In this document: positions 1 through 64,000 of the stretch, piece by piece | Position numbering within the stretch: the stretch's first letter is position 1 | Layout: each line of letters starts with the position of its first letter | From: Parabacteroides goldsteinii DSM 19448 = WAL 12034 | Lineage (GTDB): Bacteria; Bacteroidota; Bacteroidia; Bacteroidales; Tannerellaceae | Reading direction: 5' to 3' | Assembly (NCBI RefSeq): GCF_000969835.1 | Contig: NZ_KQ033912.1 | Coordinates: forward strand, 496,001-560,000 | DNA: 64,000 nt | The notes under the pieces: model-generated | The model's input: the letters and a program-made list of their open reading frames with translations, nothing else | Databases searched by the model: none | Told to the model about the DNA's origin: nothing | Made by a program: the position numbers and the translations under genes

Positions 1-825
1 TCCACGAACACGCAATGTGGGGTTATCACGCCCTGGTTGTCCTGTATCAGAAGTTACCGACACTCCTGGCAACAAACCTTGAATAGCATTGGATATATTA
101 GTCACAGGTCTGTTTCCGATCGATTCAGAATTAACTGCAGCTACAGCCCCAATTACATTTACCTTTTTCTGTACACCATAACCAACTACAACTACCTCAT
201 CAAGAGTTTGTAAATCTTCCTTCAGATAAATATTGATTGTATTATCTTTAGGAGTTACAGATTGTGCCAAATAACCGATAAAGGTAATTTCCAAAGAACT
301 ATTTTTTCCTATGGTAAGAGAGAATTTACCATCAATATCTGTGACTGTTCCATTGTGAGTACCTTTTTCTATTACATTCGCTCCAATGACAGGTTCTCCA
401 TTCTGGTCATAAACTGTTCCTTGCAATTGTTTTTTATCCTGTTGGGATTTCTTTATTTCCAAACTCGACAAGATTATGTAATTATTCACAAACTCATATT
501 TCAAGTTATGTCCGGCTAAAGCTTCCTCCAAATATTCGGATACTTTTGCTTTCTTTTTCGTTAATGATAATTCAAAGTTTGAACGAAGACCGCTTGTACT
601 ATAGATTACCAGATAATCAGTCTGTTTTTCAATTTCTTTAAAAAGCTCTTCTATCGAAATTTTGTTTGAGTTCAATTCGATAACAGCATTTTGCGCTTCT
701 GTATTCACTGCGAACAATTGACAAGCACAAACAAAAAGAATAAAAAAGGATATTTTCATAATTCTGAATGCCTTTTGGATATTTTTTAGACATAAGAAAT
801 GTATTAACAAAGGATTTATTTTCAT
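1..825 (-). CDS. SusC-like TonB-dependent receptor with STN domain (3' end outside window)
   Basis: This is the N-terminal 275 residues of an outer-membrane glycan importer of the SusC/RagA class; the barrel lies beyond the left edge. After a signal peptide comes an STN (secretin/TonB N-terminal) domain at about residues 50-105, then a carboxypeptidase-regulatory-like beta-sandwich (QGTVYDQNGEPVIGAN at about 135), the TonB-box-like motif DEVVVVGYGVQKK, and the start of the plug. The STN domain is what contacts a FecR anti-sigma factor, which fits the FecR/ECF pair directly upstream on the same strand (970-2583). I start it at the ATG at 825; an in-frame ATG at 759 would give a shorter signal peptide. 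The A of the 825 ATG overlaps an antisense promoter box. Confidence 0.93.
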   Translation of the reverse strand, partial: MKINPLLIHFLCLKNIQKAFRIMKISFFILFVCACQLFAVNTEAQNAVIELNSNKISIEELFKEIEKQTDYLVIYSTSGLRSNFELSLTKKKAKVSEYLEEALAGHNLKYEFVNNYIILSSLEIKKSQQDKKQLQGTVYDQNGEPVIGANVIEKGTHNGTVTDIDGKFSLTIGKNSSLEITFIGYLAQSVTPKDNTINIYLKEDLQTLDEVVVVGYGVQKKVNVIGAVAAVNSESIGNRPVTNISNAIQGLLPGVSVTSDTGQPGRDNPTLRVRG

Positions 826-832
826 ATCTTTG
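825..832 (+). promoter_or_regulatory. Antisense -7 box (TATCTTTG) at the susC start codon
   Basis: TATCTTTG matches the Bacteroidetes -7 consensus TAnnTTTG. It lies on the strand opposite susC and its first base pairs with the A of the susC ATG. The -33 element is weak. The same placement recurs at 16540 and 61821. Confidence 0.6.
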
Positions 833-837
833 TTTTG

Positions 838-923
838 TTAAGTAAATACTATTTTTTTGATCACGAATGGGTTTGCTTTTCGCTAAATCGGTAGATACGC
901 CAATATCTGCCGATTTTTTTAAT
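838..923 (+). ncRNA. Candidate DonS-like cis-antisense RNA, locus 1
   Basis: Predicted RNA of about 85 nt, antisense to the leader of the left-edge susC. Its start is inferred from the TATCTTTG box at 825-832. Its end is set by a 13-bp hairpin at 885-916 (arms AAATCGGTAGATA and TATCTGCCGATTT, loop CGCCAA) followed by seven T. The stem is fully paired on this strand if a U-G wobble is allowed, but has a C-A mismatch on the susC strand, so it suits an antisense transcript better than a susC leader. DonS-type RNAs in Bacteroides fragilis repress PULs under ECF sigma control. Ends are approximate. Confidence 0.55.
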
Positions 924-969
924 TTGTCATGGGCTCATACATATTACATTTAAAGGTTAATACTTCTTT

Positions 970-1953
970 TTACTTACTCAGAACGATCTGATTCAACTCA
1001 TCATCTTTTTTAATATTAAATTTATGTATCCGCTGGATCAACCGGAGTATTTCCAGCACGCCATCCCTTTGACGGAACTTTCCGACATATTCATAATTTA
1101 ATATTTCCGGGTCTTTCACAATTATTTTTACATCATAATGTAACTCGAGTTTCTTTATGATGCTTCCTAACTTTTGCCTTTTAAATGTATAAATACCTTG
1201 GCGCCACAACAATTCATCCGGATCCTTCGTCGACAGTTCCAGCCGTTTCCCTTTCTGAACCAAATACTGTTCCGGAGAAAGTACAACTCCTTCCGACTCT
1301 GAAGAGGGGAAATAAGCCTTCACAGACCCTTGCTGAAGATAAACACCGGTATAGTCACTCCCCGGGTAACAGAACACATTGAACTGAGTACCCAAAGCCT
1401 TTACATCGATCGTTCCGGTAGAAACAATAAAAGGTACTTTTTCGTTTTTAGCCACATCAAAAAATCCTTCCCCCGATAAAAAAACCTTCCGCTCCTTTTC
1501 AAAAAAAGAAGGATAAGATAATTTCGAACCGGCATTCAGCCACACTTTCGTTCCGTCAGGTAACGTCAGTTCCGCACGCTGCCCGGCCGGGACAAGCAGT
1601 TCCTGCTGAAAAGCGATCAATTCTTTCTGTTCTGCCAGATTCCCCGAAAAATAATAAGAGGCCAGCATCCATGCAGAAACAAAAGCAATTACAATGATCG
1701 CAGCATACCGGCTGAAAGATATCAGCATTACTTTCCGCTTTTGAGAATTAACCAGCTTTCTGAAACAAGCATAATTTATCCGGCCCTGCTCCTTGTCCAT
1801 CCGTTCGGGAGTCAATTCGAGCAAGCTATGTAAATGTTGATAATCTATTATCCGGGATTTCAGCACAGGGTCTTTGTAGGCTTCTTTCAGAAGCTGATCC
1901 TGTTCTTCTTTTGATAAATTTCCCTGACAATATTTTATTATTTTTTCATCCAT
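970..1953 (-). CDS. FecR-family anti-sigma factor
   Basis: Inner-membrane anti-sigma factor (327 residues) that holds an ECF sigma factor until its periplasmic part is contacted by the STN domain of a ligand-bound SusC. The cytosolic N-terminus carries a short helical sigma-binding region (MDEKIIKYCQGNLSKEEQ). A single membrane helix follows at about residues 82-103. The FecR domain follows it (VPAGQRAELTLPDGTKVWLN, then FFDVAKNEKVPFIV, then ALGTQFNVFCY), and a C-terminal FecR_C/STN-like region ends near IHKFNIKKDDELNQIVLSK. I chose the ATG at 1953; a TTG 60 bases upstream would add an unlikely extension. It lies between its sigma factor and its cognate SusC on the same strand. Confidence 0.93.
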   Translation of the reverse strand: MDEKIIKYCQGNLSKEEQDQLLKEAYKDPVLKSRIIDYQHLHSLLELTPERMDKEQGRINYACFRKLVNSQKRKVMLISFSRYAAIIVIAFVSAWMLASYYFSGNLAEQKELIAFQQELLVPAGQRAELTLPDGTKVWLNAGSKLSYPSFFEKERKVFLSGEGFFDVAKNEKVPFIVSTGTIDVKALGTQFNVFCYPGSDYTGVYLQQGSVKAYFPSSESEGVVLSPEQYLVQKGKRLELSTKDPDELLWRQGIYTFKRQKLGSIIKKLELHYDVKIIVKDPEILNYEYVGKFRQRDGVLEILRLIQRIHKFNIKKDDELNQIVLSK

Positions 1954-2031
1954 CGTGTACGATTCTTTATATAGTAAACGAACAGGAAAAATAATCCCCC
2001 TAAACAAAATCAAATTTTTTTTCTGTTTATC

Positions 2032-2583
2032 TCAATTTTCCCAGGAAGATAAAAGGAACAGGAGTAGCGGTAAGTGGTTTTTCAATTCTTCTCTCAACTT
2101 TTTGTAGGCTATAGTCATCTGGCTTTCAATGGTTTTCACAGATACATTCAATTCTTCTGCTATTTCTTTCTGTTTTTTCCCTTCTATTTTACTCATTACA
2201 AAAATCTCCCGGCACCGTTCGGGTAACGTATCAAGTGCTTTCTCTATGATGTCTTTTATATTGTCTTCAGAAAGGCCTTCCAGATTGAAAGCCTCCAATG
2301 AATCAAATTTCATACGGAAAGACAGATCGAACTCCTCCTGCATTTTAACAGCAGCTTCCTGTTCCATCAACCTCCGCCGTAAATAATCGATACATTTATT
2401 TTTCACAGAGGTAAATAAATAGGCAACCAGATTTATGTGGAAACCCAGTTCCTCTCTCTTTTGATAGAACTCCAGAAAAACATCCTGTGCGATATTTTCA
2501 GCCTCCTCATCAGAAAGGACATAGTCGCGTGCAAAATATTTGACACGCGAATACCATGTTATGTAAAAATTCTCGAAATCCAT
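2032..2583 (-). CDS. ECF RNA polymerase sigma factor
   Basis: Sigma-70 family ECF factor (183 residues) of the type paired with FecR in Bacteroidetes. Region 2 is at about residues 5-70 (ARDYVLSDEEAENIAQDVFL). Region 4 is at about 120-170, with the helix-turn-helix around GKKQKEIAEELNVSVKTIES. It is expected to drive the SusC operon downstream. The ATG at 2583 is chosen over the in-frame TTG just before it. The stop is 78 bases from the FecR start, so the two genes are probably co-transcribed. A good promoter is visible at 2624-2654. Confidence 0.95.
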   Translation of the reverse strand: MDFENFYITWYSRVKYFARDYVLSDEEAENIAQDVFLEFYQKREELGFHINLVAYLFTSVKNKCIDYLRRRLMEQEAAVKMQEEFDLSFRMKFDSLEAFNLEGLSEDNIKDIIEKALDTLPERCREIFVMSKIEGKKQKEIAEELNVSVKTIESQMTIAYKKLREELKNHLPLLLFLLSSWEN

Positions 2584-2623
2584 CAATATATCCGATATCT
2601 CAAAACAAACTCCTTACTATAAA

Positions 2624-11000: not shown

Positions 11001-11211
11001 TTTGGTCTGTTACCCCATGGGTAAAACCTTCACCAACCACTATTTCTGCATCAGAAACAGTCTCATCAGCCTCATCCACAACTCGTATGGTGAGTTCTAA
11101 CACTTTCGATTTTTCTTTTTCCTGTGCAGACAGATTACCATAGCCGGTCAGAAAAAGTAAAATCAAACCTACGCATTTTGTTATGACATATAGTCGTTTA
11201 TATAGATTCAT
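8062..11211 (-). CDS. SusC-like TonB-dependent receptor without STN domain (second pair)
   Basis: Outer-membrane transporter of 1049 residues. A signal peptide ends near NLSAQ. A carboxypeptidase-regulatory-like domain at about 40-110 is followed directly by the plug (IPGLMITEGE, ANMRGFSPIYVIDDMQID, MYGPRAANGIIFIKTKKG) and a 22-strand-type barrel ending in KLTF. No STN domain precedes the sandwich, so unlike the first SusC of this operon it should not signal to FecR. The plug opening is divergent: the usual DEVVVVGYG motif is not seen and it reads TGDYIVITGKELEKYP instead. No antisense box overlaps its start codon. Confidence 0.93.
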   Translation of the reverse strand: MNLYKRLYVITKCVGLILLFLTGYGNLSAQEKEKSKVLELTIRVVDEADETVSDAEIVVGEGFTHGVTDQNGEYKLKAKPTDFITVSKPGFEKVVTSMPLLNNDPSVVLKHSLLYRSEDDRIQLPYTYNFKRNTTGDYIVITGKELEKYPSNDLRNALVGLIPGLMITEGEGSTGTSAEETRGQFGVKTKVSANMRGFSPIYVIDDMQIDITEMQLDPSEIETVTFVKDVVGKAMYGPRAANGIIFIKTKKGQANDRILNVNVEGGVSMVDRFPKWATAGEYARLNNQARINDGLSPLYDDAALAGYDRNDPYDKIYPAVNYQDMMFNDLKSYQRANVSSSGGNNFIKYYAYLGYSGEGDNFKIGNNADYNRLNARANLDMNVNDFINVEFGFFGGLTIRRSPNYGYDKDYGKDNSDDAELDIFEFNSAIEDATTIAPNAFPVYAAFDEESGLPWYGVSSTFKRNPIGHLVDNGYYNETGRLGAANVALNYDMNHLVKGLKSRTYVGFNAYNLTRIGKAEQFAAYIATPNADKTDVTLEKVWDLTEMSGQAKLHDYYFQQFSGYQTFSYDRLFNDVHGINTALTYHISKLTRNQVENPLCQQNVNWTGSYTYDNKYTLQAAVTFAGTQSLISSYQYQFFPSVGASWIISDEQFMKNLKFIDFLKLRAEYGELGYQALTPTLFMYEDKWGVDNKGTAFGPHTNNQWFGSNTDNNIYRSTYNKLGNPDLNWETRKEFSVGLDALMLDRKLSVSVSYYNTLRTNEWVKPTNRYPLAIGLLATPYVNFNKTRYYGVELSAKYTDKIGDFRYSIGAMATLPRTERIQFDQPDYRNEYQSRIGKPTDAYFGLVHQGRFSSDEEANKIPQLFDEKLKAGDFKYADLNNDGVVDGNDMKQIGNTSPRLFYALNINLAYKNIELTIIGDGRSGFDIPLTSKYFHNGWGDNNYSKYLVENVGTDKLPRQTYYKVENNYQASTFWLKKGDYFKIQNIEIAYNLPLAASAFMGIRKARFFVRGANLATISGIKDIDPESATSGIDRYPLNRTFTGGVKLTF

Positions 11212-13102: not shown

Positions 13103-16100
13103 TTAAAAAGCGACTTTCAAACCAACTTTATAAGTACTCATCTGAGGATAGAATCCGCGAGCAAAATCTTTTCTTTCCGGATCACCTTCTAACAAACTCG
13201 TAATCGTAAAAAGGTTATTTCCCGAAGCATATACTGTAACGGCAGAAATACCGACCCACTTCTTCAAGTATTTCGGTTTTATGTTATAACCCAGATAAAT
13301 CTCTTTCAACCGAATATAGTCCGCTTTTCTCCAAAAACGATCTTTAATCATTATACCATATCCGGCATAAGCATCTCCTCCCCCCCAAGATAACATAGGA
13401 GGATTTCCCTGTCCCACATAATGCAAAGTCGAATGATTTGCATTAGGATTAATCGGCGTCCAATAATCCAATTGAGACTCATGAACCCGAAGAGAACCAC
13501 TGGTAAACTCTGCCTCAAATGCTTCATTATACTCAACATATTTACCGGAATTTCCCTGAAACAAAATACTAAAATCAAAATTTTTATAGGAAAATCCTCC
13601 GGATAAAGAAAAAGTTATCGGCGGATAAAGAGTTCCGTCAATTGCATACTTATCATAAGTATCTATTTTTCCGTCAGCCGTATAATCCAAAAATTTATAA
13701 TCACCTACATTTATATTGCCTATAGTTGTTGGAGCCGGATTATTATGAATATCATCCACAGACGTATAATATCCGGAACCCGTTAATAAAGCCCCATCAA
13801 GCTGAGCTCCATAAGGTTTTCCAGCCGCTTTTTTATATTCCGGGGCATAGGGTAAATCATCTTTATCTACAATCCGGTTTTCATTGAAACCAAAAATTCC
13901 CTTCAAATTATAACTTAATCCATACGAAGTTGTTTTGTTAAATCCCAGTTCAACTTCCAGACCATGCTTTTTCATTGAACCTTTGTTTAATTGTTTAAAC
14001 CCGTTATTACCAATCAACATGGTATTACTTTGAGGATTTAACAACATATGTGTTCTTTTTTCATCAAAAAAATCAACTCCTACAGTTATCATATTATCTA
14101 AAAAAGCCATTTCAATACCCAAGTCTCTTTTTCGAGCTTCCTCCCACTGAGCGTATATATTAGGTACTTTATCTTCATAAATATAATTTCCGTTAGCACT
14201 ATATTCGCCAATATAAAGCCATCGTTCACTAGCGGAATCACTACCTACTTTCCCATCAGAATAACGGAATTTCAATTTGTTCATCCAGGAGATATTATCT
14301 TTAAAGAACTTTTCTTCCGAAACAACCCAACCGACAGCACCGGAAGGGAAAAAACCAAAACGATTAGAAGGGGCAAACCGTTCGGAACCAGTGTACCCAA
14401 TATTGACCTCCAATAAATATCTTTTATCAAAATTATAAGTAGCACGACCTACCCAACTCTCGTTATAGTAGGCAAAATCTGTTCCTGAATTTTTCTGATG
14501 ACGGCTCATTAATGCCAGTGCCGTTACATTATGTTTTCCAAATGAACGTTTATAATCCAATGAAAACTCATAATACAAATTACTGTAATAACCATTTTCC
14601 AATCCGCCCACATTAATATCCAACGGAGGCTGCGTCCAACTTTCGTTTCCTTCACCTTCCCTGAACCAAGGATTCATTCCTGTCCCTATTTTATCAAAAT
14701 TAAGCGTATATTGAGGAACCGACCAATCAGCTGTCAGAGATTTATTTTTATAATACGTACTTAATGACACTTTTGCCTGGACGGACAGTCCTTTCGTTAC
14801 CATATCCAAATTCTGTTTAAGAATAAGATCCGTAAATAATTTAGAAGATGTATATTCATTAAATTTCCCCTGGTGAAGAGCGGAATAAGGATTTCCTCTT
14901 GCATCATTCTGTGCTGCCGCCAGACGATCTCCGGACGCATCCGGATAATCCAGATCCGGAACCTGCTCCAAAACCCATGCCGGATAATAGGCTGGATACA
15001 ATGTTGTACTAGCCTGATAAACCGGCCTCCAAGGATCTTCACCTGGAGTATTCTGTATACTAATATCTCCTCCGATATTAAAGGATAGAACAGTAGACTT
15101 AGTCAAATCAAAATCCAGATTTCCACGAAAATTAAAACGATCATACTTATATCTCGTATCGCAATAACCTTCATTCAAAGAATTAAAGAATGAACCCTGA
15201 TGATAATATCCTAAAGAAGCAAAGTATTTCACAAAATTTGTACCGCCGCGTATATTAAAATTAGCATTCGTTACCGGCGCAAAATCACGAGCCAGTACAT
15301 CAAACCAATCAACATCCGGATAACGGATTGAATTCAACGGAGTAGAAGGGTTCCGGTACTCATCAAGTACATTCTGAGGGGTTAGGCTCTGAAAAGTCCC
15401 GGCATTCATCAATCCGACATTATACATACTCATTGTCGTATAAGAATTAACATGCCTAGGCATTCGGGTCGGCAGTTCAATACCGTAAGAAGCTGAAAAA
15501 TCTAATTTCGGTTTAGATTCCACACCGCGCTTAGTCGTCACCAAGATAACCCCATTAGCCCCTTTTGCACCGAAAACAGCTGTTGCCGACGCATCTTTCA
15601 AAACAGAAATCGTATTGATTTCATTCGGGTCGAGATCTGCAAAATCACGTTCCACTCCGTCCACCATAACCAAAGGTTTAGAGCTGTTCCAACTGGAAAC
15701 ACCACGAATAATAATATCATTCGTTGTCTGTCCCGGTTGACCAGATTGCTGCATAGTTAATACACCGGATAGTTTACCGGCAATTGCAGCAGTCACATCA
15801 GACACTCCAGATTGCACCAAACTCTTATTTCCAACCTGTGTGATCGCACCCACAACACTTTCTTTTTCTTGGACTCCGTATCCAACGATCACTACTTCTT
15901 CCAGATGTTCCGTATCCTCTACCAGTTCTACAGAGACATGATTCCTTTTACCCGGTTTTATCTCTACCGTTTTATATCCGATAAAAGAAACAACCAACGT
16001 ACTGTTAGCAGGCACTTTCAATATAAATTTACCATCGACATCCGTTATTATACCCATTGTCGTTCCTTTAACCAACACATTGGCTCCGATAACAGGTACT

Positions 16101-16540
16101 CCTGTCTCATCCACCACAACACCCGTCAATTCAATCGGTTGTTGTTGTATGGAAGGAGTTACGGATCTATCCATTTTCTGTTTAATAATAACCTGCTTTT
16201 CGTTAATTTCAAAAGTCAGATTAGAATTTACAAAAAGAGGCTTTAAAATATCCTCTATAGAACCGGAGGTAGTCTTTAGAGTAACTTCTTTCTCTAACTC
16301 AGCTTTTATGTCTTCCGAATAAAAGAATATATACCCGGTCTTTTCTTTTATCGTTTTAAAGACATCCAACATGGTTGTTTTTCTAGCTTTAACTAGTTGT
16401 TCTATCGATACGAAAACATGATCCGTGTGAGCATGAATATTAGTAGCTCCTAATAATAGAACTACAATAAATCCCACACTTTCAAACATTTTAAGAAGAG
16501 AACGTAACCGATTTGTATTGTTACGACTTACTTTTTTCAT
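13103..16540 (-). CDS. SusC-like TonB-dependent receptor with STN domain (first pair)
   Basis: Signal-transducing glycan importer of 1145 residues. It has an N-terminal membrane/signal segment at about 20-40. An STN domain at about 55-115 (KTTMLDVFKTIKEKTGYIF, GSIEDILKPLFVN) is followed by a carboxypeptidase-regulatory domain (VTGVV-type, GVPVIGANVLVKGT), the VVIVGYGVQEK motif, the plug (ARNGVILV-type, here AKGANGVILVTTKRG) and the barrel to KVAF. By family analogy the STN domain engages the FecR 16688-17857. The start codon overlaps an antisense promoter box at 16540. Confidence 0.95.
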   Translation of the reverse strand: MKKVSRNNTNRLRSLLKMFESVGFIVVLLLGATNIHAHTDHVFVSIEQLVKARKTTMLDVFKTIKEKTGYIFFYSEDIKAELEKEVTLKTTSGSIEDILKPLFVNSNLTFEINEKQVIIKQKMDRSVTPSIQQQPIELTGVVVDETGVPVIGANVLVKGTTMGIITDVDGKFILKVPANSTLVVSFIGYKTVEIKPGKRNHVSVELVEDTEHLEEVVIVGYGVQEKESVVGAITQVGNKSLVQSGVSDVTAAIAGKLSGVLTMQQSGQPGQTTNDIIIRGVSSWNSSKPLVMVDGVERDFADLDPNEINTISVLKDASATAVFGAKGANGVILVTTKRGVESKPKLDFSASYGIELPTRMPRHVNSYTTMSMYNVGLMNAGTFQSLTPQNVLDEYRNPSTPLNSIRYPDVDWFDVLARDFAPVTNANFNIRGGTNFVKYFASLGYYHQGSFFNSLNEGYCDTRYKYDRFNFRGNLDFDLTKSTVLSFNIGGDISIQNTPGEDPWRPVYQASTTLYPAYYPAWVLEQVPDLDYPDASGDRLAAAQNDARGNPYSALHQGKFNEYTSSKLFTDLILKQNLDMVTKGLSVQAKVSLSTYYKNKSLTADWSVPQYTLNFDKIGTGMNPWFREGEGNESWTQPPLDINVGGLENGYYSNLYYEFSLDYKRSFGKHNVTALALMSRHQKNSGTDFAYYNESWVGRATYNFDKRYLLEVNIGYTGSERFAPSNRFGFFPSGAVGWVVSEEKFFKDNISWMNKLKFRYSDGKVGSDSASERWLYIGEYSANGNYIYEDKVPNIYAQWEEARKRDLGIEMAFLDNMITVGVDFFDEKRTHMLLNPQSNTMLIGNNGFKQLNKGSMKKHGLEVELGFNKTTSYGLSYNLKGIFGFNENRIVDKDDLPYAPEYKKAAGKPYGAQLDGALLTGSGYYTSVDDIHNNPAPTTIGNINVGDYKFLDYTADGKIDTYDKYAIDGTLYPPITFSLSGGFSYKNFDFSILFQGNSGKYVEYNEAFEAEFTSGSLRVHESQLDYWTPINPNANHSTLHYVGQGNPPMLSWGGGDAYAGYGIMIKDRFWRKADYIRLKEIYLGYNIKPKYLKKWVGISAVTVYASGNNLFTITSLLEGDPERKDFARGFYPQMSTYKVGLKVAF

Positions 16541-16547
16541 ACATTTG
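16540..16547 (+). promoter_or_regulatory. Antisense -7 box (TACATTTG) at the susC start codon
   Basis: TACATTTG fits TAnnTTTG. Its first base pairs with the A of the susC ATG at 16540, the same placement as at 825 and 61821. Confidence 0.6.
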
Positions 16548-16552
16548 TATAC

Positions 16553-16638
16553 ATTTTAGGTTTTTCAATTTACTACTGGAAAATTTAAATTCAATCAAGC
16601 CTGGATAATTGCCGTTATCCGGGCTTATTCTTTACTGA
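16553..16638 (+). ncRNA. Candidate DonS-like cis-antisense RNA, locus 2
   Basis: Predicted RNA of about 85 nt antisense to the leader of susC 13103-16540. Start inferred from the box at 16540-16547. A 12-bp hairpin at 16597-16626 (AAGCCTGGATAA, loop TTGCCG, TTATCCGGGCTT) is fully paired on this strand with one U-G wobble but has a C-A mismatch on the susC strand. The T-tract after it (TTATTCTTT) is weaker than at the other two loci. Ends are approximate. Confidence 0.5.
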
Positions 16639-16687
16639 TTAACAATGACTCTCTTTACATTTTACATAGGCTTTTCATTTTTAGTTA

Positions 16688-17857
16688 TTATTCAATTATA
16701 ATAGTCTCCGATTCAAACCGATAAGTAAATTCATATAACAAAGAAAGAGACTTCATCACCTGATTTACATCATCAAAAAGAATCAACTCACCACCACATC
16801 GCCTACCGGCCACTGATGGATCACACTTTATCTCTACATTATAATAACGGCTCAACCGTTTCAATACTTCGGCTACAGTTTCTCCCTTAAACTGAAGAAT
16901 TCCATCTTTCCATGAAGTGTAGTCGTACACATCGACTGGTACGACTTTATTCTTGTGATCGTTCATCTCTAGTTTCTGATTAGGAATTAATTTTATTTCT
17001 TCATTCATCTCTGTTTTTACAGCGACCTGCCCTTTAACCAAAACGACAGACTGAAGTTCTTCATCAGAATAAGCAGAGACATTAAAACTCGTCCCTAGCA
17101 CATTGACTGTAAATTTAGGAGTTTGCACATAAAAAGGTTTCGACTCGTCTCTGACCACCTCTATATAAATTTCACCCTGCACTTGAATCATTCGCTTTTC
17201 AGAAGAAAATGTCGAGGGGAAACGTAAAACAGATCCGGCATTAACCCATACTTTCGATCCGTCCGGCAATTGCAATGAGGAACGTTTTCCACGGGGAACG
17301 ACTAAGGTATTATAAACCATTTTTTCCTTCGGGTCCACTTTCGATTCTGATAAATAATTTTTCTGCCCTTTGGCATTCTGTACATAAACAGTAGAATCGT
17401 AGGCAATAATAGCATTATCTTCAATCTCAATTGTTTCCGCTCGATCTGTGATTAAAGTAACTTCCGTATGAACAGTATCGCTTACCGGGAGAACAGCCAA
17501 ACTATCTTGACCGACAGATGAATCATGACTCATATAAACCGGAATCAAAAACAAAACTCCGATCAGGCAGGCTGCAACCAGTGCCCCATATAAATAAAGG
17601 TTATGTTGTTTTTTCTTTTGTGCATTATGGCTTCTATAAACCTTGTCCAATAATTCCTTTTGCTTTTCCTCCGATAAAGAATAATTGTTCAATTGTATTT
17701 TTTCAAAATCATGGCACGCTTCTTCATAAAGTTCCTGTTTATCAGGATGTTCCTTCAAATAGGCTTCCCAATATGCAGTAGATTCTTCATCCGACAACAG
17801 TCTGTTACGGACAAAGCGCTCATCTTGCCAAAAATCATTTTTTACTTTCTTTTTCAT
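16688..17857 (-). CDS. FecR-family anti-sigma factor
   Basis: Anti-sigma factor of 389 residues. A cytosolic N-terminal region of about 95 residues (DERFVRNRLLSDEESTAYWE) is followed by one membrane helix (LYGALVAACLIGVLFLIPVY). The FecR domain shows VVPRGKRSSLQLPDGSKVW, IYIEVVRDESKPFYVQT and VLGTSFNVSAY. A C-terminal segment ends in YRFESETIIIE. It is longer than the FecR at 970-1953 because of an extra charged linker of about 60 residues after the membrane helix. The ATG at 17857 is preferred to a TTG at 17869. It lies between its sigma factor and the STN-type SusC. Confidence 0.93.
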   Translation of the reverse strand: MKKKVKNDFWQDERFVRNRLLSDEESTAYWEAYLKEHPDKQELYEEACHDFEKIQLNNYSLSEEKQKELLDKVYRSHNAQKKKQHNLYLYGALVAACLIGVLFLIPVYMSHDSSVGQDSLAVLPVSDTVHTEVTLITDRAETIEIEDNAIIAYDSTVYVQNAKGQKNYLSESKVDPKEKMVYNTLVVPRGKRSSLQLPDGSKVWVNAGSVLRFPSTFSSEKRMIQVQGEIYIEVVRDESKPFYVQTPKFTVNVLGTSFNVSAYSDEELQSVVLVKGQVAVKTEMNEEIKLIPNQKLEMNDHKNKVVPVDVYDYTSWKDGILQFKGETVAEVLKRLSRYYNVEIKCDPSVAGRRCGGELILFDDVNQVMKSLSLLYEFTYRFESETIIIE

Positions 17858-17944
17858 ATAAGAAAACAAGTGTTGTTACTATTAAGACAACCTCACTCAT
17901 TTTTTGCCCCCACAAAAATTCAAATAATTAAAAAAAATGATTTT

Positions 17945-18532
17945 TTATATCCAATCAGAAGGAAAGATTATCAAAAATAGCGGAATAACAGATGAGGTTG
18001 CCTCCTCACGCATATGTTCAATTCCCCTCGCCACCAACTTTCGTGCACCTTTCTGGGTCAGGTCTAACATATCTGCAATCTCATCATAGGAAAGTTTTTG
18101 CATATACCTTAAATAGATGGCTTCCCGTTGCCGATCCGTTAAAGTATCCAGCAGAGATTTTACTTTCTGTACTCTCATAGCAGCTTGTTCACGGTCTATC
18201 AGTTCATCCAGTAAATCGACCTCAACAACAAATAAATGTTCACACTGTTCTACGTCACTATATTCATAGGGGATTTTTAAGACATTCAAAAGTCTGTTCT
18301 TAAAACAAGTAAACAAAAAAGATTTTATATTTCTAACGCCTTCAAAAATTTTCGTATTAGATAACAATGACAGGAAAAGATCATGAAGAACATCATACAA
18401 TTCATCGTCCGAAAGACCGAACCCTTTCCCATAAGCATACAAATTATTCACATAACAAGTATAAATATAGTCAAAACTCTCTCGATCTCCCTGAACTAAT
18501 TTTTTTATAATATCTTCTTCAGCTACATTCAT
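17945..18532 (-). CDS. ECF RNA polymerase sigma factor
   Basis: ECF sigma factor of 195 residues. Region 2 at about 10-75 (FDYIYTCYVNNLYAYGKGFG, ELYDVLHDLFLS). Region 4 at about 125-180 with the helix-turn-helix MQKLSYDEIADMLDLTQKGA. First gene of the PUL that runs down to 2759, which it should activate. Its upstream region holds a TATATTTG box (18594-18587) and a 15-bp perfect palindrome (18605-18642). Confidence 0.94.
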   Translation of the reverse strand: MNVAEEDIIKKLVQGDRESFDYIYTCYVNNLYAYGKGFGLSDDELYDVLHDLFLSLLSNTKIFEGVRNIKSFLFTCFKNRLLNVLKIPYEYSDVEQCEHLFVVEVDLLDELIDREQAAMRVQKVKSLLDTLTDRQREAIYLRYMQKLSYDEIADMLDLTQKGARKLVARGIEHMREEATSSVIPLFLIIFPSDWI

Positions 18533-59868: not shown

Positions 59869-60453
59869 TCAGACAATTCTGACTAAGGCCATTAATAATG
59901 GCAGATAGTCTTTCAACTCGACACGCAAAAGTTTCAATGCCTGTTGAATACGGTAATCGACCGTTTTAGATGAGACATTCAGTTTCTGTGCTATCTCATT
60001 ATAAGTCATATTCTGGAAGCGATTCATTTCAAAAGCCTCCCGATAACTTTCCGGCAAACGTGACAAAGCAGCTTCAATATTCCTCGTCAACTCTTCAACC
60101 ACATAAAAGTCCGGATCTTCATACTGTGACTGCCAATCTGCATACAGCGTATTTACAATCTGTTGTTTCAGTTCATTCCGATTGATCAGGGTCAGGCATC
60201 TGTTCTTTACGGCTTTAAATAGATAATTCTTCGGAGAGGATTCGATAACCTGCATGCTACTGTTTTCCCAAAACCAAACCATCACATCTTGTACGATCTC
60301 CTGACCGTCATCTACATTTACAAATTGTTTGGCATAAGCACACAAAAGAGGATAATAACGCATAAACAATACATCGAATGCTTTCACATCGCCTGCTTGA
60401 ATCCTTTGAAAAAGAATCTCATCGTTTGTGTTGTCTGTAGTAGTTGAAAGCAT
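59869..60453 (-). CDS. ECF RNA polymerase sigma factor
   Basis: 194 residues. Region 2 at about 15-85 (FDVLFMRYYPLLCAYAKQFV, EIVQDVMVWFWEN). Region 4 at about 130-180 (MTYNEIAQKLNVSSKTVDYR). Of the same class as the two sigma factors on the left, but here the FecR gene (60635) is divergent instead of downstream. It should still activate the SusC operon starting at 61821. A minus-strand TATTTTTG at 60511-60504 could be its -7 box. Confidence 0.94.
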   Translation of the reverse strand: MLSTTTDNTNDEILFQRIQAGDVKAFDVLFMRYYPLLCAYAKQFVNVDDGQEIVQDVMVWFWENSSMQVIESSPKNYLFKAVKNRCLTLINRNELKQQIVNTLYADWQSQYEDPDFYVVEELTRNIEAALSRLPESYREAFEMNRFQNMTYNEIAQKLNVSSKTVDYRIQQALKLLRVELKDYLPLLMALVRIV

Positions 60454-60634
60454 ATTAAGACCTATAATGTATTAAATTCCAGTGATACTAATGTGAGTCT
60501 GTGCAAAAATAACATTTTTCAACATATCAACCTATTACAACACGATTAACTTTTTCAAAAAAATATCACAAAAAAAATGCTTTTTCGTTTAGGAGGTTTT
60601 CCCGCTCATTAGTCTTAATTATAAAAGAGACAAA

Positions 60635-61651
60635 ATGGATACACAAAAAAACATAGACGAACATATGCTTCTGGACTACTTTTCAGGTTCACTATCCGCT
60701 ACTCAAAAACAAGAAGTAGAAGAATGGCTGAACCAATCTGAGGAAAACAGAAAAATAGCTCGTGACATTCAATATATTTATTTAGCAACCGACACACTTC
60801 AGACAATAAAAGGAATAAACTCCGACCAGGCTCTTGTCCAGGTAAAGAAAAGGATCATTAAGCCCGAAAAAAAACATTACTTTGTCTGGCTTCAAAGAAT
60901 CGCTGCTATATTGGTTTTACCTTTACTAATCAGCACACTTTATTTTGCTCTCAAAGAAGATCCGGTTGAATACATTGAAATCAGGACAAATCCGGGTATG
61001 GTGGCTAAAGTCGATCTGCCAGACAAAAGTAAAGTATGGCTAAACTCCCAATCTTACTTGAAATATCCACAAAAATTTACAGGAGATACGCGTTATGTAG
61101 AAATTAACGGGGAAGCCTACTTCTCCATCCAAAAGGATAAAACCAAAAAATTTATAGTAAATACACCTTTTGATATAAAAGCAGAAGTATTAGGCACAGA
61201 ATTTAATATTGAAGCCTATAAGAAGAAAAATCAAGTAACTACAACTTTGGTCTCTGGTTCAGTTAGACTTTCATTCCTAAATAAGGACAACAAAGAAGAA
61301 TCTGTAATAATGAAACCTGATGAGGAAATTTCATATAACATTAAAAATAAAAAGATTAAACTTCATACATCCTATATTCCAACACAAATAGCCTGGAAAG
61401 ATGGACTGGTTATTTTAAGAAACACACCATTTGAAGAAGTTCTAAAAATATTGAGTAAACGATTCAATACAAACTTCATCGTAAAGAACGACCTATTGTA
61501 TAACAATTCGTTTACTGGTACATTTAGTGGACAACATCTCCATCTGATACTTGAACATTTTCGCTTATCAACTGATATTCAATACAAATTCATTGATCCG
61601 GATATCAGTCAAAATAAAATATCCGAAAAGACAATTGTCGAATTATATTAA
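60635..61651 (+). CDS. FecR-family anti-sigma factor
   Basis: 338 residues. N-terminal sigma-binding part (HMLLDYFSGSLSATQKQEVEEW), one membrane helix (IAAILVLPLLISTLYFAL), FecR domain (TNPGMVAKVDLPDKSKVWLN, AYFSIQKDKTKKFIVNTPFD, VLGTEFNIEAY) and a C-terminal FecR_C part (ILRNTPFEEVLKILSKRFN). It controls the divergent sigma factor and is switched by the STN domain of the SusC 170 bases downstream on the same strand. Confidence 0.93.
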   Translation: MDTQKNIDEHMLLDYFSGSLSATQKQEVEEWLNQSEENRKIARDIQYIYLATDTLQTIKGINSDQALVQVKKRIIKPEKKHYFVWLQRIAAILVLPLLISTLYFALKEDPVEYIEIRTNPGMVAKVDLPDKSKVWLNSQSYLKYPQKFTGDTRYVEINGEAYFSIQKDKTKKFIVNTPFDIKAEVLGTEFNIEAYKKKNQVTTTLVSGSVRLSFLNKDNKEESVIMKPDEEISYNIKNKKIKLHTSYIPTQIAWKDGLVILRNTPFEEVLKILSKRFNTNFIVKNDLLYNNSFTGTFSGQHLHLILEHFRLSTDIQYKFIDPDISQNKISEKTIVELY

Positions 61652-61702: not shown

Positions 61703-61807
61703 AAAAAAAACATACGGAAAAATATTGGCGTATTTCTCCGTATGAAAAACAACTGTAAGCTTGTTTGGCGACAAGCTCCAGCAAATGAATTTTTTTAACT
61801 CTAAAAT
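61703..61807 (-). ncRNA. Candidate DonS-like cis-antisense RNA, locus 3
   Basis: Predicted RNA of about 105 nt antisense to the leader of the right-edge susC. Start inferred from the TAGATTTG box at 61821-61814; end from a 14-bp hairpin at 61711-61744 (loop CGCCAA on this strand) followed by eight T. The stem pairs fully on this strand with one G-U wobble but has an A-C mismatch on the susC strand. A second perfect hairpin at 61758-61777 (AGCTTGT / ACAAGCT) has the same loop sequence. Ends are approximate. Confidence 0.55.
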
Positions 61808-61813
61808 CACTTA

Positions 61814-61821
61814 CAAATCTA
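61814..61821 (-). promoter_or_regulatory. Antisense -7 box (TAGATTTG) at the susC start codon
   Basis: Minus-strand TAGATTTG fits TAnnTTTG; its first base pairs with the A of the susC ATG at 61821. Confidence 0.6.
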
Positions 61822-64000
61822 TGACAAATTATTTTAGCATCCAACATTTCAGGATGGTGAATTTATCGTTTATTGTCCTGAAAAAAATACCATTATGTAT
61901 GAGACTCACCGCAATAATGTTATTTGTATGTATCGGACTGGCATATGCCTCCGAAAGTTACAGTCAATCTACAACACTAACTCTGAACGTTAACAACAAA
62001 ACGGTACAAGAGGTCCTGGATGAAATTGAGAAACAATCTGAGTTTCACTTCTTCTATAACAACAAGCAGGTAAATACGAATCGTGTTGTTTCTATTAAAA
62101 GTAAAAAAAAGGATGTATTCAACGTTCTTGAACAATTATTCAATGGAACGGATATCAGTTATAAGGTTTTGGATAAAAGCATTATCCTCTCTCCCAAAGA
62201 GATGCTGATGAGTGCTGTTGTACAGCAATCCATAAAAAATATATCCGGCACTATTACCGATAGCAATGGCGAACCAATCATCGGAGCAAATGTATTGGAG
62301 AAAGGATCTACAAACGGTACCGTAACCGATATCAACGGCAAATTTAGTTTATCCGTACCCAATAAATCGACATTGGTAATCTCCTATATCGGATATGTAT
62401 CCAAAGCTATTGTCGTAGGAAACCAGACAGTCTTCAACATACAATTGACAGAAGACACTCAAAACTTAAATGAAGTAGTTGTAACAGCGTTAGGTATCAA
62501 ACGTGAAGAAAAAGCTTTGGGATATGCGGTTCAAAAAGTAGATGCGAAAGCATTAACCTCAGCAAAAAGTATCGATGTCGGAACTTCATTAACCGGAAAA
62601 GTGGCAGGTTTAAATGTTAAAAACAGTACCGAATTCAATGAAGCTCCCTCTTTGAAATTAAGAGGAGAAACTCCCATATTGATCATCGACGGTATCCCAT
62701 ATGGAAATATGACATTGAACGAAATTGCACCTGACGATATCGAATCCATCGATGTCTTAAAAGGTGCCACCGCTTCTGCTTTATACGGAGCACGCGGTAC
62801 TACCGGTGCGATCATGATCACTACCAAGAGAGGTTCACAAAATGAAGGTATTAATGTAGAGATCAACAGTAACACAATGTTTTTCGCAGGATATCTGGCA
62901 TTCCCAGAAGTACAATCATCTTATAGTAGAGGCTACGGCGGAAAATACAACAGCGATTATGTATGGGGAGACAAATTGGATATCGGAAGAACGGCTATTC
63001 AATACGACCCGGAAACATTCGAGTGGAGAGAAATGGAGTTAACATCCAAAGGAAAAAATAACTTTAAAAACTTCCTCCAATTCAGTGCGATTACAAACAA
63101 CAATGTCAGTGTCTCGCAAAAAGGAAAGTACGGCTCGTTCAGAACATCATTGACCCACGTGTTCAACAAGGGACAATATCCTAACCAAAAACTGAACAAA
63201 ATAACTTATACTGCCGGAGGTGAAATGAGTTACAAAAATTTCAAACTGGAAGGATCAGCGTCATACAACAAACGTGTGTCATCAAACGACAACGGTTCAG
63301 GTTATAGCGGCAGCTATATTTATGACATGGTAATTTGGGGTGGTACGGAATATGATGTACGCGATTATAAAAATTATTGGGTTGAAGGTAAAGAAAATGA
63401 ACAGCAAAACTGGTACGATAATAGCTGGTATGACAATCCGTGGTTTAAAGCCAACGAAGTTGTCGATGCTTATGATACTGATATATTGAATGTGTATATG
63501 AATTCGTCCTATGAAATTACTCCTTGGCTGAAAGCCATGTTAAGAGGCGGATTGGACTTTTATTCCAAGAAAAATGAATGGAGAAATGCGAAAAGTGCCA
63601 ATTATGCATGGGATAAAAACGGATTCTTCGGTATCAGTCGCACTTCCGGTTACAGTATCAATACAGACGCCATGTTAATGGCAGACAAGACATGGGGAAA
63701 ACTAAATATGAATGTATTAGCCGGTGGTAATATTTATTTCTATTCGGATGACAAAATGAGAAGCACCACCTCCGGCGGTCTGACTATTCCCGGATTTTAT
63801 TCTCTAAAAGCCAGCGTCGATCCTATCGATGCCAGCAGTGAATTGAAAAGGAAAAGAGTAAACAGCTTATATGGTAAATTGTCATTATCATGGGCCAGTA
63901 CCTATTTCCTTGATGTAACCGGACGTAACGACTGGTCATCCACATTATCCAAAGAGACACGTTCTTACTTCTATCCTTCCGTCGCCGGAAGTGTGGTATT
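61821..64000 (+). CDS. SusC-like TonB-dependent receptor with STN domain (3' end outside window)
   Basis: The first 726 residues of a SusC/RagA receptor. Signal segment around MRLTAIMLFVCIGLAYASES. STN domain at about 55-115 (LNVNNKTVQEVLDEIEKQSE), carboxypeptidase-regulatory domain at about 150-215 (ISGTITDSNGEPIIGANVLE), NLNEVVVTALGIKREEKALG, plug (LYGARGTTGAIMITTKRG) and part of the barrel. The ALGIKREEKALGYAVQ form of the TonB-box region defines a common SusC subgroup that differs from the VVGYG type of the other SusCs here. I start it at the ATG at 61821; in-frame ATGs at 61854 and 61899 are alternatives. Its STN domain pairs with the FecR upstream. Confidence 0.93.
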   Translation, partial: MTNYFSIQHFRMVNLSFIVLKKIPLCMRLTAIMLFVCIGLAYASESYSQSTTLTLNVNNKTVQEVLDEIEKQSEFHFFYNNKQVNTNRVVSIKSKKKDVFNVLEQLFNGTDISYKVLDKSIILSPKEMLMSAVVQQSIKNISGTITDSNGEPIIGANVLEKGSTNGTVTDINGKFSLSVPNKSTLVISYIGYVSKAIVVGNQTVFNIQLTEDTQNLNEVVVTALGIKREEKALGYAVQKVDAKALTSAKSIDVGTSLTGKVAGLNVKNSTEFNEAPSLKLRGETPILIIDGIPYGNMTLNEIAPDDIESIDVLKGATASALYGARGTTGAIMITTKRGSQNEGINVEINSNTMFFAGYLAFPEVQSSYSRGYGGKYNSDYVWGDKLDIGRTAIQYDPETFEWREMELTSKGKNNFKNFLQFSAITNNNVSVSQKGKYGSFRTSLTHVFNKGQYPNQKLNKITYTAGGEMSYKNFKLEGSASYNKRVSSNDNGSGYSGSYIYDMVIWGGTEYDVRDYKNYWVEGKENEQQNWYDNSWYDNPWFKANEVVDAYDTDILNVYMNSSYEITPWLKAMLRGGLDFYSKKNEWRNAKSANYAWDKNGFFGISRTSGYSINTDAMLMADKTWGKLNMNVLAGGNIYFYSDDKMRSTTSGGLTIPGFYSLKASVDPIDASSELKRKRVNSLYGKLSLSWASTYFLDVTGRNDWSSTLSKETRSYFYPSVAGSVV

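Follow-up and report, generated by a model that had tools for sequence, protein, structure and literature searches.

Predicted DonS-type antisense RNA genes with a promoter box on the susC start codon at FecR–susC junctions of Parabacteroides and other Bacteroidota

Introduction

PULs with antisense RNAs of the DonS family are typically under the control of an ECF sigma factor and its anti-sigma factor (FecR). In the antisense systems CopA/CopT and Sok, pairing is thought to begin at a YUNR hairpin loop, and YUNR U-turn loops are a feature of plasmid antisense RNAs. The founding DonS paper, on Bacteroides fragilis, is that of Cao et al. from 2016 (doi 10.1128/JB.00381-16). The available part of one survey gives DonS-type antisense RNAs as 78–128 nt long, divergent to susC homologues and negative in their effect on them (PMC7366714), an effect described, in the excerpts at hand, as validated for one B. 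fragilis member. From similarly partial sources, PUL antisense RNAs are reported for 15 PULs of B. fragilis (PMC9723704), and 32 are annotated in B. thetaiotaomicron, where pairs of antisense RNA and PUL are both anticorrelated and positively correlated and where the function of these RNAs is said to need characterisation (PMC10994844). The positive correlations, as given in that partial source, imply that repression is not universal. A related case is FopS (PMC11697453). The accessible part of its description gives it a sigma-ABfr promoter as well as a terminator hairpin, and states that it acts close to the susC start codon to repress translation.

The window analysed here, a stretch of 64,000 nucleotides from Parabacteroides goldsteinii, contains three FecR–susC junctions that resemble the DonS type in several respects. 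At all three loci the predicted RNA is antisense to a PUL susC homologue with ECF sigma and FecR genes beside it, and each predicted RNA has its own -7 box and an antisense-oriented terminator hairpin; such elements are many per genome. Predicted lengths are about 85, 82 and 106 nt in the window, with a median of 88 nt and a range of 67–137 over 60 hairpins (ends predicted), as against the 78–128 nt printed in the available part of the DonS-type survey. The same layout occurs in Bacteroides finegoldii and Phocaeicola massiliensis. What differs is the host range: the elements are found in Parabacteroides and predicted in Flagellimonas, Chitinophaga, Sphingobacterium, Roseivirga and others. As far as sequence tells, the window loci are best filed as DonS-type members, and a preliminary description that had classed them as DonS-type cis-antisense RNAs holds as a sequence prediction, since box, terminator, orientation, setting and length all fit.

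Other described systems are more distant. FopS and GibS, according to the partial sources, are trans-acting, carry a conserved 5' seed and bind RbpB, whereas the window RNAs would be cis-encoded on the complementary strand. Nor do the window elements match an Rfam family: no match reached the gathering score anywhere in the window, which is the level at which loci 2 and 3 were searched, and none appeared at 780-1000 (locus 1) up to E = 1. The enrichment of YUNR loops in these Bacteroidota antisense hairpins recalls CopA/CopT and Sok; unlike those systems, the elements lie in chromosomal transporter leaders, without a copy-number or toxin partner. In the PUL antisense RNA literature surveyed, which was available in part and did not include the founding DonS paper, we did not find the lock of the promoter to the start codon, its other registers, the placement of G-U pairs or the loop rule. 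The RNA type is known from Bacteroides; what appears new is a base-exact rule that works phylum-wide on DNA sequence alone.

Materials and Methods

Parabacteroides gordonii, a close relative, served as proxy for the genome of the window. Of its 78 FecR_C matches, 58 were taken as FecR and define the P. gordonii junctions; the other 20, whose open frames run to about 900-1260 residues and resemble the STN part of SusC, were left out. At a few of the 58 junctions the downstream ORF is not a typical SusC (e.g. L061, L063, L073), and these were kept. Two sets of control starts come from P. gordonii: 20 hand-picked from 56 scored TIGR04056 hits, with no FecR_C match just upstream (L074-L093), and 282 generic ORF starts from 400 kb. 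The exact box was sought at the first five in-frame ATGs in three registers, and for generic ORFs at the first ATG in register 0 only.

Beyond P. gordonii, the sample comprised order-level Bacteroidales loci and six genomes (Flagellimonas, Chitinophaga, Roseivirga, Sphingobacterium, Tangfeifania and a Marinilabiliaceae MAG), which together we take to represent five classes, Bacteroidia counted in. The six genomes were sampled only; Chitinophaga, for instance, contributed 20 junctions from a genome with 104 matches. With the gap between FecR stop and ATG limited to 20-400, 136 of 151 junctions were used. Loci L094, L105, L109, L120 and L122 are cut by contig ends, and Marinilabiliaceae L125 yielded no junction. 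Loci L001-L015 stand outside the 136, and some of them are the same loci as rows inside it. Thirteen regions were taken from a plasmid collection, of which L244/L252 (overlapping), L245, L246, L250 and L251 were without a junction. Twenty-six FecR loci of further Parabacteroides were added, 3 of which gave no junction and 2 of which lay beyond the gap limit.

A strict terminator is a hairpin with no mismatch and a T-rich tail. The loop set excludes the window loci, and loops of 3-4 bases were widened by two pairs; the generic loops were collected with looser thresholds.

Results

The three loci of the window

Table 1. Features at the three FecR–susC junctions of the window; RNA ends and ECF promoter elements are predictions.
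Locus	Feature	Position	Strand	Remarks
1	susC	1..825	-	start codon 823-825; leaves window; STN match under Pfam's cut-off
1	antisense -7 box TATCTTTG	825..832	+	first T pairs with A of susC ATG; CAT 823-825
1	predicted antisense RNA, ~85 nt	838..922	+	ends predicted
1	terminator hairpin, 13 bp, loop CGCCAA	885..916	+	one G-U, pair 6 from loop
1	putative ECF-sigma promoter of susC, AACC-N-GTATGA	935..958	-	putative
1	FecR anti-sigma gene	970..2013	-	ORF from TTG; likely Met start near 1953
1	ECF sigma factor gene	2032..2586	-	
2	susC	13103..16540	-	STN match under Pfam's cut-off
2	antisense -7 box TACATTTG	16540..16547	+	on susC start codon
2	predicted antisense RNA, ~82 nt	16553..16634	+	ends predicted
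2	hairpin, 12 bp, loop TTGCCG	16597..16626	+	G-U at pair 7
2	GCCTATG, putative ECF promoter element of susC	16665..16671	-	putative
2	FecR gene	16688..17869	-	
2	ECF sigma factor gene	17945..18532	-	
3	ECF sigma factor gene	59869..60453	-	divergent from FecR
3	FecR gene	60635..61651	+	
3	predicted antisense RNA, ~106 nt	61703..61808	-	ends predicted
3	terminator hairpin, 14 bp, loop CGCCAA, T8 tail	61711..61744	-	G-U at pair 6
3	upstream hairpin, loop CGCCAA	61758..61777	-	
3	antisense -7 box TAGATTTG	61814..61821	-	on susC start codon
3	susC	61821..64000	+	STN above Pfam's cut-off; leaves window; listed ORF from TTG 61761, ATG 61821

At each of the three FecR–susC junctions of the window, the strand opposite susC carries an exact TAnnTTTG whose first base lies opposite the A of the susC ATG (Table 1). 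A hairpin with a stem of 12-14 bp and a loop of six bases follows after 49-69 bases, 52 at locus 1, where a run of seven T includes three inside the stem; the T tail of locus 2 is broken (ATTCTTTAC). The preliminary description had reported a box on the start codon followed by a hairpin at these junctions, and the arrangement recurs at three of three, far from chance; its observation that the susC starts at 11211 and 51338 are without the box was likewise confirmed. Taken alone, the word CAAAnnTATG shows no enrichment in the window (6 matches against 3.6 expected, with 6 or more in 16 of 100 shuffles). Its bare count is thus uninformative, and the improbable thing is the position of the word, not its number.

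TAnnTTTG is, in the available part of PMC7366714, the published -7 consensus of sigma-ABfr, the housekeeping sigma factor of Bacteroidota. The box on the start codon can therefore be read as a promoter element, and CAAAnnTATG as its reverse complement fused to the start codon. Around the 80 exact boxes of the wider sample the -33 element (TTTG) is weak, with a mild excess of TTG: it starts at -23, -22 or -21 from the box start in 7, 4 and 3 of 80, with 0-5 at other positions. An antisense promoter and a terminator are almost certainly real at these junctions.

The stems of all three loci pair fully on the antisense strand, each with one G-U, and the same pair is an A-C on the sense strand. Completeness on the antisense strand only, with a sense-strand mismatch six or seven pairs from the loop, had been noted in the preliminary description, and the affected pairs are indeed the sixth, seventh and sixth. 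Antisense folds reach -23.5, -26.0 and -31.2 kcal/mol at loci 1, 2 and 3, against -15.0, -15.1 and -25.0 for the sense strand, with folding z of -4.9, -5.9 and -5.7 (antisense) and -2.1, -2.1 and -3.8 (sense).

FecR and sigma-70 domains adjoin all three antisense elements, and each susC encodes a CarbopepD_reg_2 domain as well as an STN match, at least a weak one, which passes Pfam's cut-off at locus 3 only. At that locus the sigma gene is divergent from FecR (59869-61651), unlike at loci 1 and 2, and the antisense element is nonetheless the same. Two hairpins sharing the loop CGCCAA, a possible double contact site, occur at locus 3 (61711-61777, minus strand), in P. gordonii L060 and L066 and in P. 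distasonis L254.

Position and specificity of the box

Among P. gordonii ORF starts after FecR, CAAAnnTATG lies exactly at an in-frame ATG in 34 of 58, as against none of the 20 susC starts without FecR beside them (p 9e-7) and none of the 282 generic ORF starts. The word is thus more frequent at FecR-linked starts than elsewhere, the comparison that the preliminary description had set out, and its proposal of CAAAnnTATG as a search rule is borne out. Across the 136 junctions, antisense TAnnTTTG begins at offset 0 from the first in-frame ATG in 60, at +4 in 8 and at -1 in 3, and any other offset between -150 and 150 accounts for at most 3; TAnnTTTG on the sense strand of the same junctions has no positional peak. 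Exact boxes number 80 of 136 (69, 8 and 3 in registers 0, +4 and -1), 27 more junctions have a one-mismatch box, most commonly TAAAnnTATG (11 of 27), and 29 have neither; among the controls, one of 20 has a one-mismatch box (L079). After filtering, exact boxes are found at 34/57 junctions in P. gordonii, 6/15 in other Bacteroidales, 5/13 in Flagellimonas, 12/20 in Chitinophaga, 1/3 in Roseivirga, 16/18 in Sphingobacterium, 3/5 in Tangfeifania and 3/5 in Marinilabiliaceae. Relative to the downstream ORF, CAAAnnTATG is in frame 69 times and out of frame 4 times, 2 of these 4 at offset +4.

In the separate set L001-L015, an exact box stands at an in-frame ATG or homologous start in nine of 15 (L001, L002, L004, L006, L007, L009-L012), and six (L003, L005, L008, L013-L015) are without one. 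The plasmid-collection records hold seven named junctions of FecR with susC or a TonB receptor, and the box is exact at five of these (B. finegoldii L242, L243 and, in register +4, L247; P. distasonis L254; and Phocaeicola massiliensis L248, where it precedes the ORF after FecR); at the other two (P. distasonis L253, Spirosoma L249) it has one mismatch. In B. finegoldii L243 and P. distasonis L254, a boxed in-frame ATG precedes the annotated susC start by 23 and 27 codons, respectively, and the box may locate the true start there. The 'plasmid' records of B. finegoldii TSDC17.2 (L242-L247, L252) carry argH and PULs and may be pieces of chromosome.

So precise a placement could be thought to serve the sense strand, with CAAAnnTATG acting in translation initiation or as a leader element and no antisense promoter involved. 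Most boxes do share a single register, and an A-rich start region correlates with translation efficiency in the phylum, according to the accessible part of PMC7366714. A translation signal is nevertheless a poor fit to registers +4 and -1, in which the box stays while the ATG shifts. The eight +4 cases in the 136 are all from Sphingobacterium (L126, L135, L148, L176, L180, L181, L186, L187); in them, as in B. finegoldii L247, the box encloses the ATG, and the transporter has Tyr as residue 2 ('MY...'). Since, in addition, generic ORF starts do without the word and the box predicts an antisense terminator (57/80 junctions with the exact box against 4/29 with none), we regard a sense-strand signal as very unlikely. 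Functionless antisense promoters arising by accident in AT-rich DNA are a second possibility; random promoters may account for some antisense RNAs in a low-GC genome, as stated in the portion of PMC7366714 at hand. Accident is, however, hard to square with a position that holds to the base in dissimilar paralogs and in different classes, with the matching terminator, and with absence from all 302 control starts, and this reading seems to us extremely improbable.

Terminators, loops and the sense-side promoter

Strict antisense terminators accompany 57 of the 80 exact boxes, leaving 23 without, and occur at 17/27 one-mismatch junctions, 4/29 junctions with no box and 0/20 controls; strict sense-strand terminators were found at 3/80, 0/27, 0/29 and 2/20, respectively. 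In 83 hairpins, T makes up 5.9 of the 9 nt past the best hairpin on the antisense side and 2.3 of them on the sense side. Read on the antisense strand, the 60 strict stems (the 57 plus the three window loci) contain 69 G-U and 4 A-C among their imperfect pairs, which, with the T tails on the antisense side, upholds the earlier suggestion that selection acts on the antisense transcript. Generic P. gordonii terminators (n=22) contain 24 G-U and 7 A-C, with G-U in 15 and A-C in 6 of the 22, so that only ratio and placement set the antisense stems apart: 42/60 antisense stems have a G-U at a distance of four to seven pairs from the loop, compared with 6/22 generic ones (p 8e-4). Such terminators would work one way only, letting sense transcription enter susC.

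Upstream of the hairpin, GCCTATG lies between the FecR stop and susC at 30 of 57 P. gordonii junctions (L016-L073), 18 of them boxed; at these 18 it ends 12-39 nt upstream of the hairpin. AAC begins 14-19 nt ahead of it in 17 of the 30. The background is 38 occurrences in 400 kb, both strands counted. A k-mer search of four genomes returned a clear sense promoter word, GCCTATG, in P. gordonii alone; by eye, GCCTATG is also seen in other Parabacteroides and at one B. finegoldii junction. We infer that GCCTATG is the ECF promoter of susC, in which case the antisense RNA would span the greater part of the susC 5' UTR without reaching that promoter.

The location of the hairpin between FecR and susC would also suit a terminator of the sigma–FecR operon on the sense strand, the box being incidental. 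Yet it is the antisense side that has the T tails and G-U pairs, strict sense terminators are as rare as the 3/80 given above, and the hairpin of the 18 boxed P. gordonii junctions stands beyond the putative sense promoter; an operon terminator is therefore highly improbable.

A universal loop sequence was considered and rejected, and an enrichment of YUNR was found in its place. Counting either strand, 37 of 57 loops contain YUNR, against 18 after shuffling (reached in 0 of 2000), and among unique loops 25 of 43 do, against 13.9 (1 of 2000). TTGG or CCAA occurs in 14 of the 57, shuffled 2.5 (0 of 2000). The loops of generic terminators (n=42) have YUNR in 22 against 19.1 shuffled (426 of 2000) and TTGG/CCAA in 4 against 2.2. 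The enrichment suggests pairing through loop contact and lowers the odds that the RNA is purely a by-product.

Conservation and joint decay

Between locus 1 and P. faecis, identity is 57% at FecR third codon positions, 94% in the 5' part of the antisense element and 90% in the hairpin, with 8/8 in the box; against P. gordonii, where the same parts give 81%, 94%, 95% and 8/8, the contrast is smaller. The FecR of locus 1 shares 90% identity with its P. gordonii counterpart and 83% with the one in P. faecis. Locus 1 (1-2013, compared with L001 and L002) looks mosaic: FecR DNA is nearer P. gordonii (90% vs 79%), susC codons 31-100 are nearer P. faecis (96% vs 66%), and the antisense element lies between the FecR and susC parts. 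Paralogous leaders within P. gordonii have a median ungapped identity of 33% and a maximum of 67%, so the fixed box does not stem from recent duplication. In the further Parabacteroides, the box is present at 17 of 21 usable junctions, 12 of these 17 with a strict terminator.

These data bear on the most serious rival, in which promoter and terminator are real and regulation lies in transcription itself, through convergent promoters and polymerase collision or occlusion, the RNA being a by-product. A promoter on the start codon and a transcript ended before the putative ECF promoter would suit such interference; promoter position alone is strictly conserved, leader sequences not; and positive correlations between antisense RNAs and PULs are reported for B. 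thetaiotaomicron in the partial source cited above. Against it, antisense loops exceed shuffles in YUNR while generic terminator loops do not, and P. faecis resembles locus 1 more closely in the antisense 5' part than at FecR third codon positions. Together, the YUNR excess and the conserved 5' part suggest that the product matters; we judge the by-product reading unlikely, and RNA pairing, not mere transcriptional interference, is the probable mode of action.

One case of joint decay was found. Junctions L229 and L230, from two Parabacteroides genomes, have a 57-base deletion in common, probably a single event. In L229 the box lacks its TA, in L230 it has one mismatch, and neither junction has a strict hairpin. 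The susC N-terminal extension is shorter by about 19 codons, and the sense GCCTATG is intact. Box and extension are kept in eight aligned homologous junctions (L226, L228, L235, L219, L221, L223, L218 and P. gordonii L028). Because five of these eight (L235, L219, L221, L223, L218) also fail the strict terminator test, with complementary arms visible by eye, the loss of the hairpin in L229 and L230 was judged by eye.

In boxed SusC, the region before the hydrophobic core has a median of 21 residues and at least 12 in 71/80. At least 12 residues precede the core in 22/26 with a one-mismatch box, 16/29 with no box and 9/20 not linked to FecR.

Discussion

We consider it very probable that each FecR–susC junction of the window holds a DonS-type cis-antisense RNA gene with its promoter fused to the start codon, and, going by sequence, likely or rather better than likely that its DonS-like RNA mainly represses susC. 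The proposed mechanism is as follows. A housekeeping (sigma-ABfr) antisense promoter would be fused to the susC start codon, and since the first base of the -7 box lies opposite the A of the ATG, the upstream half of the promoter falls within the first susC codons. Transcription would start about 13 nt upstream of the ATG and proceed for about 70-135 nt backwards along the susC 5' UTR, until the antisense-oriented terminator ends the RNA before the putative ECF promoter; an RNA running through the leader in this way would be complementary to most of it. By analogy with DonS, a constitutive antisense RNA would, without glycan, pair with leaky susC mRNA. Pairing may begin at the exposed hairpin loops, often of the YUNR type, and would block susC translation or destabilise the mRNA. 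Release of the ECF sigma factor by FecR would set off strong sense transcription, which would cross the start codon and override the antisense promoter, presumably by occlusion, and the outcome would be a sharp off/on threshold.

A wider reading is more tentative. The N-terminal extension of SusC may house the upstream half of the antisense promoter, although the -33 element is itself weak; we hold this suggestion to be slightly less likely than not. Much the same reserve applies to the view that FecR-controlled TonB-dependent transporters of Bacteroidota share an ancestral composite element, with antisense promoter and start codon united in a single stretch of DNA. On this view an extension of about 20 residues ahead of the signal peptide exists mainly for the upstream half of the promoter, so that a regulatory RNA would have shaped the protein, 'MY' starts at register +4 included; the terminator loops would be kissing loops, and extension, box and terminator would be gained or lost as a whole. 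Our confidence in this reading of extension and composite element moved from evenly balanced to a little below because of the caveats on L229 and L230 and the weak -33 element.

To the preliminary description, the present analysis adds the identity of the box with a published -7 element, its reach into other classes and its other registers. GCCTATG with AAC is a candidate promoter of PUL ECF sigma factors, for which, in the accessible part of PMC7366714, no motif was known in B. thetaiotaomicron as of 2020. PUL antisense RNAs have so far, in the sources available in part, been reported from RNA-seq in B. fragilis and B. thetaiotaomicron; the rule predicts them from DNA, flags doubtful susC start annotations and extends the antisense layer to other Bacteroidota. 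If true, this would also stand as a clear example of a transporter family whose N-terminus is constrained by an antisense promoter.
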